Below, in pieces: positions 10,437 through 60,157 of a DNA stretch of 64,000 nucleotides. The notes beneath the pieces are model-generated. The model was not told the origin of the DNA and searched no databases. It was given only the letters and a program-made list of their open reading frames with translations. How positions within the stretch are numbered: position 1 is the first letter of the stretch; each line of letters starts with the position of its first letter. A program made the translations under genes and the position numbers. This DNA comes from an uncultured Thermotogae bacterium (GTDB lineage Bacteria > Thermotogota > Thermotogae > Mesoaciditogales > Mesoaciditogaceae): NCBI GenBank assembly GCA_913056255.1, contig CAJXLN010000001.1, positions 1 through 64,000 of the forward strand, given 5' to 3'.

Positions 10437-10667
10437 CAAAATTCATCTCCTTTTCAAGATCCCCCCAGTACTTCTTTAACAGTAAATAAGAAATGCGGAA
10501 TCGATCGATTTCTTGCATCTTTTGTAGATAAAGAAAAACACCACGCTTGAAAAGCTTTAGAGGCACCTCAAGAGGGAGATCATTTTTTCAATTGTACCCA
10601 AAAGTTCCTTAAAGGAAAGAGAATCGATCTTATTTTCTTCCCATTGATCATTCTCTTCAAATACCAC
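10396..10667 (-). pseudogene. xseB: Exodeoxyribonuclease VII small subunit, frameshifted remnant (or recoded gene)
   Basis: GTG overlapping the folD stop gives MVFEENDQWEENKIDSLSFKELLGTIEK; the -1 frame after an A6 run gives NDLPLEVPLKLFKRGVFLYLQKMQEIDRFRISYLLKKYWGDLEKEM, resembling XseB. Confidence 0.55.
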
Positions 10668-11475
10668 GAGCGGATCTCACGATATTTCTCATAAGCACGG
10701 CATTTGTTATGCTTCCCACTCCACCAGGAACTTTAGAGACTGAAGCTTTTTTCGAAACCGAATCAAAGTCAACATCACCTATGACTTTACCGTTTACCAC
10801 GTTTATTCCCACATCTATCACAACTGCTCCCTTTTTAACCCATTTTTCATCGAACATTTTAGGTTTTCCGATCGCAACAACCAACACATCCGCGTGTTTC
10901 GTCTTCTCAATGAGATTTTGAGTTTTGGAGTGGCACACGGTAACCGTTGCATTTCGAGACATCAGCAGCAATGAAAGAGGTTTCCCAACTGTTGTGCTTC
11001 TCCCAACAATTGTAACGTTCGCCCCCTTTAAGGGAACGTTATGATATTCCAAAAGTTCGACAACTGCCTGTGCCGTACAGGGCACAAAGAATGGAGCATT
11101 GAGCAAGATCTTTCCGAGATTTTCTGGTGTTCGCCCTTCCACGTCTTTTTTGGGATCAAGCGTACTCAATACCGATATTTCATCCACTCCTTTGGGGACA
11201 GGGTGCATGAGCATGACACCGTGAACTTTGTCATCTTCGTTCAGCGTCTTCACATCTTTTATTATGTTTTTAGAGTCAGTTTCAACCTCGGCGTAATTTA
11301 TTCCGAGTTTATCACAATTACGTTTTATTGAGTTCAAATAAACTCTTGTGGATTTATCATCAGAGGAAACAAGGCATCTCAAAGCTGGAATGATCCCCTT
11401 AGACTTGAGATGTTCTACTTCTTTTTGAACTTCTTTTTTTATTTCATTCCCAAGAACTGCTCCATCAAGTATCAT
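10657..11475 (-). CDS. folD: Methylenetetrahydrofolate dehydrogenase/cyclohydrolase
   Basis: VTIVGRSTTVGKPLSLLL and VPGGVGSITNAVLMRN; start MILDGAVLGNEIKKEV. Confidence 0.95.
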   Translation of the reverse strand: MILDGAVLGNEIKKEVQKEVEHLKSKGIIPALRCLVSSDDKSTRVYLNSIKRNCDKLGINYAEVETDSKNIIKDVKTLNEDDKVHGVMLMHPVPKGVDEISVLSTLDPKKDVEGRTPENLGKILLNAPFFVPCTAQAVVELLEYHNVPLKGANVTIVGRSTTVGKPLSLLLMSRNATVTVCHSKTQNLIEKTKHADVLVVAIGKPKMFDEKWVKKGAVVIDVGINVVNGKVIGDVDFDSVSKKASVSKVPGGVGSITNAVLMRNIVRSARGI

Positions 11476-11608
11476 AGAATTCGCCTCAAAGCAACTCTCC
11501 AATTCACCAGGGAGAGGAATTGACGCATCCTCCTTTCAAAAAAATAGTTGCAGCCATCAGTATAATGACTTGTCATCACACAACTCCCCCGCATTTATGC
11601 GGGGAGTA
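11476..11608 (-). promoter_or_regulatory. folD leader (leader A): 5' hairpin, stem plus T-run, AGGAGG, 44-nt foldable insert, AUG
   Basis: Strong sequence match to the pdxT leader at 59441-59572; complementary segments GCGTCAA/TTGAGGC and CTCTCC/GGAGAG. Confidence 0.7.
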
Positions 11609-11621
11609 ATTGATCATTTTC

Positions 11622-13778
11622 TTAAAACAGTCCAGAAATTTTCCCCTCGTCATCTACATCTATAGATTGGGCCGCTGGTACTTTCGATAGTCCAGGCATT
11701 GTCATGATCTGACCAGCCACGGGAACGATGAAACCAGCTCCGTTTGAAAGAATAACTTCACGAACTGTGAAGGTGTATCCGGACGGTGCACCTACAAGCT
11801 TGGGATCGTCAGTGATAGATGCTTGGGTTTTCGCCATGATTATCGGTAACTTCCCATATCCCTTTTTTTCTATATTTTTGATATCCGATAAGGCTTTAGA
11901 AGTGTAAACCACATTGCCTGCTCTGTATATTTCCTTTGCAATAATACCTATTTTGTCCTTAACAGGCATATTCCAATCGTATATTCCATGGAAGTGGTTT
12001 TCATCTTTTTCTATCGACTCTACGACTTCGTGCGCCAATTCTTCAGCGCCCGCGCCACCTTTACTCCATGCCTCATTCAGTGCAATGCGTACGTTCATGC
12101 TCTTCGCTTCTTCTTCAACGAGCTTTATCTCGGCATCCGTATCGGTTGAGAATTTGTTTAAAGCTATAACAACCGGAAGACCGAATTTTTTAACGTTCTC
12201 GACGTGCACTTTAAGGTTTTTCATACCCTCTTTGAGTGCATCGAGATTTTCTGTGCTAAGTTCTTTTTTATTCATTCCACCGTGCATTTTCAAGGCTCTG
12301 ATAGTAGCAACAAGTACAACTGTATCGGGTTTGAGATCCGCATATTTCGATACCACATCGAAAAATTTCTCCGCGCCTAAATCGGCGGCAAATCCAGTTT
12401 CTGTTATCACGTAGTCAGCGAACTTCAACGCGAGTTTTGTTGCCACAACGGTGTTCGTCCCATGAGCGATGTTAGCAAATGGTCCGCCATGGACGAAAGC
12501 GGGTGTGTGATCTATTGTTTGAACAAGATTTGGATTCAGTGCATCCTTTAAGAGTGCAGTCATAGCGCCTTGAGCCTTCAGATCGCCTGCTGTCACGTAT
12601 TTTCCACCTTTGACCGTTTGTCCTATGATGATATTTGAAAGTCTTTTCTTCAGATCTGACAGATCTTTGGCAAGACATAGAATCGCCATTACCTCTGAGG
12701 CTGCTGTGATAACGAAATTAGTTTCCCGAGGGAAACCGTTGGAGCGTCCACCTAAAGAGACGACTATGTGTCTAAGAGCGCGATCGTTCATATCAATGGC
12801 TCTTGGCCATGTTATCCTTCTAACATCTATTCCGAGATCATTACCATGATGAATGTGGGCATCTATCAGAGCAGAAAGCAAGTTATGAGCGGCACTCACG
12901 GCATGCATGTCTCCCGTGAAATGCAGGTTGATATTTTCCATAGGGAGAACCTGAGCATATCCTCCACCAGCCGCTCCTCCCTTTATACCAAAGACAGGTC
13001 CAAGAGATGGCTCTCGCAAAGTGACTATCGTCTTTTTTCCGATTTTATTCATCGCTTGAGCAAGACCAACACTCGTTGTGGTTTTGCCTTCACCTGCAGG
13101 CGTCGGAGTGATGGCCGTAACGATTATCAACTTCCCATTTTGTTTATTTTGAAGGTCTTTCAGAAGTTGGTGGGGTACTTTTGCAATGTACTTTCCATAT
13201 GGGATCAATTGTTCTTCTTGAATTCCTACAGATTTTGCTACCTCTGATATAGGTTTCAATTCAACACTTTGTGCGATTTCAATATCACTTTTCATGTTAC
13301 TACCTCCTCTGTATAATTTGAACTTCTGAGGTGGTGCAAGATTCTTAGCGATCTTGTCAAGCACCCCATTCACGAATTTCCTATCACCTTCTGTACCGTA
13401 GATCTTAGAAAGCTCCACAGCTTCGTTTATACTGACCTCTATTGGAACATTTAAATCGTAAAGAAGTTCATAAGTTTCAAGTCTGAGGATGCTTCTTGAA
13501 ACAATCGAAAGTCTTTCCATAGACCATCCTATCAATCGCTCAGAAATGATTTTATCTATCTCTGTCATTTTAGAGACAGCGCCCGAAGCAAAAATTTCTA
13601 CCTCTTTTTCAAGATCCCAAGAAACGCCTTCCGCTTGACAGACCCTATGGGTCGAATCGGAAGGCGTTAAGTCCTGAAACTCCAATTGATAAATCGCCTT
13701 GAATGCCAGATCTCTCATAAAACGTCGTCGAGATCTTCTGTTGGACACCTTACTCTTGGTCCCCCGTTTCTTCTTCAT
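11622..13778 (-). CDS. fhs: NusB domain (about 161 aa) in frame with formate-tetrahydrofolate ligase (557 aa)
   Basis: NusB-like N-terminus (RRFMRDLAFKAIYQLEF...IEVSINEAVELSKIYGTEGDRKFVNGVLDKIA) then MKSDIEIAQSVELKPI...TPTPAGEGKTTTSVGLAQ; no stop between; internal ATG at 13295 with SD AGAGGAGGT. Confidence 0.92.
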   Translation of the reverse strand: MKKKRGTKSKVSNRRSRRRFMRDLAFKAIYQLEFQDLTPSDSTHRVCQAEGVSWDLEKEVEIFASGAVSKMTEIDKIISERLIGWSMERLSIVSRSILRLETYELLYDLNVPIEVSINEAVELSKIYGTEGDRKFVNGVLDKIAKNLAPPQKFKLYRGGSNMKSDIEIAQSVELKPISEVAKSVGIQEEQLIPYGKYIAKVPHQLLKDLQNKQNGKLIIVTAITPTPAGEGKTTTSVGLAQAMNKIGKKTIVTLREPSLGPVFGIKGGAAGGGYAQVLPMENINLHFTGDMHAVSAAHNLLSALIDAHIHHGNDLGIDVRRITWPRAIDMNDRALRHIVVSLGGRSNGFPRETNFVITAASEVMAILCLAKDLSDLKKRLSNIIIGQTVKGGKYVTAGDLKAQGAMTALLKDALNPNLVQTIDHTPAFVHGGPFANIAHGTNTVVATKLALKFADYVITETGFAADLGAEKFFDVVSKYADLKPDTVVLVATIRALKMHGGMNKKELSTENLDALKEGMKNLKVHVENVKKFGLPVVIALNKFSTDTDAEIKLVEEEAKSMNVRIALNEAWSKGGAGAEELAHEVVESIEKDENHFHGIYDWNMPVKDKIGIIAKEIYRAGNVVYTSKALSDIKNIEKKGYGKLPIIMAKTQASITDDPKLVGAPSGYTFTVREVILSNGAGFIVPVAGQIMTMPGLSKVPAAQSIDVDDEGKISGLF

Positions 13779-59387: not shown

Positions 59388-59576
59388 TTGGGCGTGGTAA
59401 GTAGTACTCCTATTCCTGTTGTGAGGTGCTTTATGTCGATCATCTCCCGCATAAATGTGAAGGGCTTGCGAGAGAGAATAGTTGTACCGATGATTATAAC
59501 TATTCTTTTCGAAAGGAGGAGGCGTCAATTCCTCTCCAAAATGAATCGGGGAGTTTTCTTGATGCAAATTCTATGA
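59388..59576 (+). other. Small ORF in pdxT leader, stop overlapping pdxT ATG (ATGA); coding status unknown
   Basis: Ends FERRRRQFLSKMNRGVFLMQIL; equivalent frame in the folD leader ends FERRMRQFLSLVNWRVALRRIL. Confidence 0.3.
59441..59572 (+). promoter_or_regulatory. pdxT leader (leader B), homologous to the folD leader
   Basis: CTCCCGCATAAATG, AATAGTT/AACTATT stem with T-rich tail, GAAAGGAGGA, 44-nt foldable segment GCGTCAA...TTGATGC, AATTCTATG. Confidence 0.7.
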
Positions 59577-60157
59577 GAATCGGTGTGCTTGGAATGCAGG
59601 GTGACATAGAAGAACATCTTGCAGTGTTCAAAAGATTGAATGTAGATGCTTTTCGCGTGAAATCGTTAAAGGCACTCAATACGGTTGATGGACTCGTAAT
59701 CCCTGGAGGTGAAAGCACAACTATACTGCGATTGCTCAAGCTGACAGGATTGTTTGGAAAACTGAAAGATATGATACAGAAAGGCTTTCCCGTTTTTGGT
59801 ACATGTGCAGGAATGATTTTGCTTTCTAAAGAGATCACTTCTCATTCTGAGCAAGATGCCCTTAACGTTCTCGATATTTCAGTGAATCGCAATGGTTATG
59901 GGCGGCAAGTTGAATCGTTTGAAGTGGATCTATCAATTCCCTTGATCGGCGAAAAACCATTCAAGTCGATCTTCATTCGTGCCCCCCTGATCGTCAGAAC
60001 TGGCAAAGGTGTTAAAATCTTGGCAAGATACGATGGAACTCCAGTGATGGTACGCGAAGGTAACGTTATGGCTTCTTCCTTTCATCCAGAACTTTCCAAC
60101 GATTTGAGAATACACGAGTTGTTTCTCAGGATGGTAAAAGATGCTTCTCGTCATTGA
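59573..60157 (+). CDS. pdxT: Pyridoxal 5'-phosphate synthase glutaminase PdxT
   Basis: MRIGVLGMQGDIEEH; GLVIPGGESTTILRLL; GTCAGMILLSKE; SFHPEL. Confidence 0.96.
   Translation: MRIGVLGMQGDIEEHLAVFKRLNVDAFRVKSLKALNTVDGLVIPGGESTTILRLLKLTGLFGKLKDMIQKGFPVFGTCAGMILLSKEITSHSEQDALNVLDISVNRNGYGRQVESFEVDLSIPLIGEKPFKSIFIRAPLIVRTGKGVKILARYDGTPVMVREGNVMASSFHPELSNDLRIHELFLRMVKDASRH

Follow-up and report, generated by a model that had tools for sequence, protein, structure and literature searches.

IscB is the likely ancestor of Cas9, and to our knowledge the question of how IscB transposons persist without harming their hosts has been little studied. The original HEARO paper, by Weinberg in 2009, reportedly describes integration at ATGA or GTGA. 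Non-autonomous elements of the PATE type, which are MITEs derived from IS200/IS605 transposons, are short and hairpin-ended, produce no target duplication and are dispersed within one species. The IsrB nickase, a relative of IscB, has an NTGA TAM (PMC9581776). In T4, RNA structure between the Shine-Dalgarno (SD) sequence and the AUG shortens the spacing from 22 to 5 nt in gene 38 and from 27 to 11 nt in gene 25, and it raises initiation (PMC3014915). The literature that we searched, a set outside which the original HEARO, ISC and IscB papers lie, contained no account of an SD-hairpin-start codon role for the 3' end of HEARO/IscB transposons.

The window analysed here, a stretch of 64,000 nt from a Thermotogae genome, contains two leaders, in front of folD and pdxT, that belong to a dispersed element. 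Its copies resemble HEARO/IscB (ISC) transposons (RF02033, NF040563) in having the same 3' end, a probably matching 5' end and an insertion point beside ATGA/GTGA, but, unlike these transposons, no longer contain iscB or the greater part of the guide RNA. Like PATE-type MITEs, they are short and hairpin-ended, lack a target duplication and are dispersed in a single species, whereas their near-exclusive placement at start codons, their sense orientation and the ribosome-binding site that they carry set them apart. With the split ribosome binding sites of T4 genes 25 and 38 they share, as a matter of geometry only, a hairpin that shortens an over-long SD-AUG spacing; here, however, a transposon end provides the hairpin, the SD lies 53 nt from the AUG, and copies of the arrangement stand before many genes and turn up again in different phyla. 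Taken as a whole, the data are in all likelihood best explained by an IscB/HEARO derivative that sits at the start codon and supplies a split ribosome-binding site. The relevant features of the window are:

11476-11614, minus strand: IscB/HEARO non-autonomous derivative (MITE) before folD, as assigned by comparison; 17 genome copies, site empty in congeners G001 and G002
11560-11614 (boundary approximate), minus strand: left part of the folD element (GTCAATTAC plus CCCGCATAAATGCGG hairpin), probably what is left of the 5' end of the HEARO (omega) RNA (nt 1 to ~50)
11529-11537, minus strand: SD GAAAGGAGG of the folD leader, supplied by the element; equals iscB codons E-R-R in autonomous relatives
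11483-11526, minus strand: folD two-stem hairpin of 44 nt, which separates SD from AUG and is the right (3') transposon end
11472-11475, minus strand: folD insertion boundary, with the start-codon ATG inside the target/TAM-like ATGA
10657-11475, minus strand: folD, 272 aa, beginning at the element boundary (Pfam THF_DHG_CYH, residues 3-113 matching profile 1-115; also NCBIfam)
11622-13283, minus strand: fhs (formate--tetrahydrofolate ligase), upstream of the folD insertion (NCBIfam E 1e-268)
59435-59572, plus strand: second element copy, before pdxT (left boundary 59433-59435)
59421-59428, plus strand: original SD region of pdxT, GTGAGGTG, pushed to ~145 nt upstream of the ATG (alignment with empty sites)
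59511-59519, plus strand: SD GAAAGGAGG of the pdxT leader, supplied by the element
59522-59565, plus strand: pdxT two-stem hairpin of 44 nt (right transposon end), between SD and AUG
59573-60157, plus strand: pdxT, beginning at the element boundary (NCBIfam TIGR03800, residues 2-185 matching profile 1-183)

A separate observation concerns the region upstream of the folD insertion, where NusB-like and formate-THF ligase sequences share one 718-aa open reading frame (11622-13778, minus strand) with no stop between them, which may reflect fusion of the two genes, loss of a stop codon or an error in the sequence.

The first-pass annotation had described the two leaders as homologous and identically laid out, and our data agree with it on both counts. 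On the minus strand, the folD leader runs from the SD GAAAGGAGG through AT, the 44-nt insert and GAATTCT to the ATG at 11475; that of pdxT has the SD, AG, a 44-nt insert and AAATTCT before the ATG at 59573, so that both leaders combine a 44-nt hairpin with a 7-nt spacer and an SD-to-ATG distance of 53 nt. Exact matches to GCGTCAATTCCTCTCC in the window are confined to these two leaders. The insert is foldable, as proposed, and its folding would bring the effective spacing to about 9-10 nt (geometry only). An upstream CCCGCATAAATG hairpin is indeed common to both leaders, and Rfam searches over the whole window and locally matched no RNA family, in line with the earlier remark that no known riboswitch was recognised. 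The AGTTG.../...AACTATT stem that had also been suggested did not prove general; at this position, the consensus of the copies forms a hairpin, GGGCTTG...CAAGTCC.

With the folD leader as DNA query, 17 sites were hit in the own genome (E 4e-35 for the best non-self hit), placing the homology beyond chance, and a covariance model detected 18 strong copies and one weak copy of an element of ~140 nt. In 15 of the 18, the ATG of an open reading frame of at least 160 codons lies directly at the element end. The genes that follow are unrelated: folD, pdxT, hisS, rdgB, an SbcD-like nuclease gene (sbcD) and genes for a GH38 mannosidase, a biotin-carrier protein, an S9 peptidase and an ABC permease; for the first five, the gene-family match starts at the first residues after the element. 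Two congeneric genomes yielded no match to the DNA query and a single marginal covariance-model match (E 0.044). These results bear on the idea, put forward in the first-pass annotation, that the leaders act as an RNA switch, responsive to a ligand or to temperature, that ties folate C1 to PLP metabolism. The leaders are structured, and the SD could pair alternatively with UUCCUC. However, the element precedes at least 15 functionally unrelated genes, is transposon-derived, shows a species-level dispersal with sites empty in the congeners and matches no known RNA family, so that the switch is largely refuted and, in our estimate, scarcely credible. More generally, leaders that are structured and recur before unrelated genes may turn out to be transposon ends rather than riboswitches.

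Several copies deviate from the common form. In copy C2b (L013:2096), the start codon is lost (ACGA) and no long open reading frame opens there. Copy C28b (L022:1942) has its SD disrupted by an insertion and no long reading frame downstream. In copies C17 and C12 (L015, L017), a different left part (TTTCAAAGTTATATT..GGACACTCTATA) replaces the HEARO remnant, pointing to either a second sub-family or a chimeric element.

Element-free folD and pdxT sites exist in both congeners (G001, G002) and locate the insertion point immediately 5' of the start codon. At pdxT, the empty site reads TTGTGAGGTGTTTAT followed across the insertion point by ATGAAAATCGG in G002, and TTGTGAGGTGTATGG followed by ATGAAAATTGG in G001, while the occupied site in the window consists of TTGTGAGGTGCTTT, the element and ATGAGAATCGG; the native SD region of pdxT is now ~145 nt away from the start codon. 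Similarly, the folD ATG in the window is about 145 nt away from the fhs stop, compared with about 20 nt in the congeners. The insertion adjoins A/GTGA without target duplication, and the comparison of occupied with empty sites establishes, at the level of sequence, that the element inserted at start codons.

The origin of the element emerges from other Thermotogae, in which the covariance-model matches sit at the 3' end of intact iscB genes. The encoded protein is IscB (NCBIfam NF040563 guided_IscB, E 8e-117; Pfam RRXRR; related to solved IscB chains), and HEARO RNA (RF02033) lies upstream of iscB in these relatives, with complete matches at E 6e-20 to 6e-36. In the intact elements, GAAAGGAGG makes up the final stretch of the iscB reading frame, where it often supplies the codons E-R-R, and the models R1 and R2 match both the own copies and the intact elements, which thus have the same 3' end. 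The 5' half of the copy consensus (GTCAATTACCTCCCGCATAAATGCGGAGGGCTTG...CAAGTCC) aligns to HEARO 5' ends (nt 1-50) with a score of 36, against a shuffle maximum of 22; this alignment exceeds all 1000 shuffles for three of eight HEARO RNAs, only ~50 nt remain, and the window contains no Rfam match. Because the 3' end is common with intact iscB elements and the 5' half aligns to HEARO, comparison identifies the folD and pdxT leaders as shortened, non-autonomous derivatives of IscB/HEARO transposons (IS200/IS605 superfamily). An iscB gene (RRXRR/HNH) was looked for inside the folD and pdxT copies and is absent; the own genome retains only an iscB fragment, ~170 nt upstream of copy C8a, and contains one gene for a Y1 transposase (TnpA), which is unlinked to the element copies. 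The TnpB (IS605) elements of the own genome were considered as a source and rejected, as their flanks lack the motifs.

The arrangement extends well beyond this genome. An IscB alignment, run against 85,462 species genomes, gave 80 loci from many phyla, whose 3' ends are built alike: the SD comes first, followed by stem a, TTCCTC, stem b, a loop, T(C/T/A)TCC and stem a', and a spacer of 5-12 nt, ~8 nt in most, leads to the ATGA. A model built from IscB ends produced 70 matches in the 80 loci, nearly all directly after iscB, and the tetranucleotide following the end is ATGA in 59 of 63 cases. At least 80 codons open at that tetranucleotide in 31 of the 56 usable IscB loci, compared with 23% of control ATGA/GTGA sites, a rate that would predict about 13. 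Start-codon insertion is thus a strong preference, not a rule, because the remaining 25 of the 56 elements precede an ATGA that opens no reading frame of 80 codons. Among further Thermotogae copies, 39 of 60 open at least 80 codons at the ATGA. In Thermotogae relatives, atpD, coaD, gltX, mutL, pheT, fmt and hydF follow the element, with the family match running from the first residues, and several of the genes behind the element are normally essential. Eight loci on annotated plasmids were also checked: the next coding sequence starts right after the end hairpin in four (Anoxybacillus, Cetobacterium, Finegoldia, Shewanella) and does not do so in those of Natranaerobius, Ligilactobacillus, Pontibacillus and Ammonifex. 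On balance, we lean towards the view that IscB/HEARO 3' ends, in bacteria and some archaea, evolved as portable split ribosome binding sites, with insertion at start codons, including those of essential genes, being tolerated as the element rebuilds the start. If true, transposon ends that restore translation of their target gene would represent a simple and testable form of self-domestication, which would account for the location of IscB transposons before ATGA start codons and provide essential genes with ready-made 5' leaders.

Some IscB loci show peculiarities of their own. In L066 (G006), iscB and a DNA adenine methylase-like gene overlap directly, the TGA that stops iscB being part of the ATGA with which the second gene begins. 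Two Sutterella loci (L099 and L114) have ATGG rather than ATGA after the IscB end, perhaps reflecting a lineage with another insertion motif. Genomes G065 and G087 contain 31 and 22 IscB-end matches, many of them at contig ends; these are large non-autonomous families that probably break the assemblies.

In the mechanism that we propose, an element reduced to ~50 nt from the start of the HEARO guide RNA plus the 3' transposon end landed directly before an ATGA at which a host gene begins, and so cut this gene off from its native ribosome-binding site. As a candidate replacement, the 3' end brings the near-perfect SD GAAAGGAGG, the end hairpin and a spacer of 7-9 nt. Folding of the hairpin in the mRNA would then place the SD ~9-10 nt from the AUG instead of ~53 nt, creating a 'split' ribosome-binding site. 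Such SD-hairpin-ATG ends may explain how the element can be present before essential genes without silencing them. Likewise, if the mechanism is correct, it would provide a natural and repeated instance of hairpin-shortened SD spacing beyond the T4 examples.

A different route to translation would be coupling: a short leader reading frame (MRQFLSPMNWRVSLTQIL followed by a stop) ends at the TGA of the ATGA, so that ribosomes could reinitiate on the host gene, as could those terminating on iscB in autonomous elements. In the consensus, this frame ends exactly at the overlapping TGA, as it does from internal starts in folD and pdxT. The iscB stops, which usually lie inside the hairpin, ~25-30 nt before the start codon, also fit coupling. 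Against it, the first ATG of the leader frame is missing in pdxT and would have zero SD spacing. By inspection, the leader length changes in C46, C8a, C12 (hisS), C2a (rdgB), C10 and C28b; most of these changes alter the frame, yet most of the length-changed copies still form the outer stem. Reinitiation is therefore the weaker account, because the leader frame is disturbed in six copies, that of hisS included, and we regard it as quite improbable. A leader-peptide reading frame was rejected in view of the same length changes.

The behaviour of the SD itself suggests that the host gene likely uses the copy supplied by the element. In the autonomous elements, iscB reads across the SD in three different frames (26, 14 and 5 loci), and Cetobacterium and Natranaerobius have GGAGGTGAT or AAGGAGGTGA instead, which represent another register of complementarity to the 16S anti-SD. 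Among the own copies, the 6-mer that varies least is GAAAGG (C28b has its insertion there), and the pairwise difference is 0.05 for the SD, 0.19 for the hairpin and 0.29-0.33 for the remainder (left part). Judged from these patterns, the SD is conserved as nucleotides. Across IscB ends, the linear SD-ATG distance ranges from 44 to 65 nt (median 53), and its median across the folded hairpin is 10 nt (geometry only).

Bridging of this distance by a hairpin folded in the mRNA is the best available mechanism, although the case for it is weaker than that for SD use. The consensus hairpin of the copies is markedly stable (z = -5.3; 0 of 200 shuffles as stable). It is the consensus and the comparison that carry the folding signal; the individual folD and pdxT leaders fold no better than shuffles (z 0.36 and -0.38). 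In 35 IscB ends, 86.5% of cells pair versus 57.5% in shuffles, the covariation score is 0.704 versus 0.199, and 12 of 14 hairpin pairs show two-sided changes; both the further copies and the covariation that the first-pass annotation had looked to are thus found. Covariation inside the own 17 copies is no better than in shuffles, because these copies are too alike. Selection at the mRNA level should favour G.U over A.C among one-sided changes on the sense strand. The own copies show no such excess (23 vs 19), and among the IscB ends the balance tips towards A.C (G.U 13 vs A.C 28), so that strand asymmetry was rejected as proof of RNA-level hairpin selection. The strong covariation across IscB elements is therefore best explained by a role as transposon end, with the antisense single-stranded DNA as the form that an IS200/IS605 transposase would recognise and the mRNA hairpin as a by-product that suits translation. 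In computed ensembles, the outer stem has a high probability in most leaders and forms poorly at 37 °C in two of 14 (C2a, C28a); the SD is only about half exposed.

The direction of the covariation also fits the notion that the leaders are transposon remnants and nothing else, in which case the hairpin and the purine-rich GAAAGGAGG would be recognition features for the transposase and translation would proceed by other means, such as standby binding or weak SD-independent initiation. Nearly half of the IscB ends, moreover, lie away from gene starts and yet carry the SD and the hairpin. We nevertheless consider this explanation unlikely, given that the SD motif shifts register while complementarity to 16S rRNA is kept, that the SD is the slowest-changing part of the shrunken copies and that essential genes retain the insertion. 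The split ribosome-binding site also agrees with the state of the sole own copy with a disrupted SD, C28b, which is not followed by a long reading frame.
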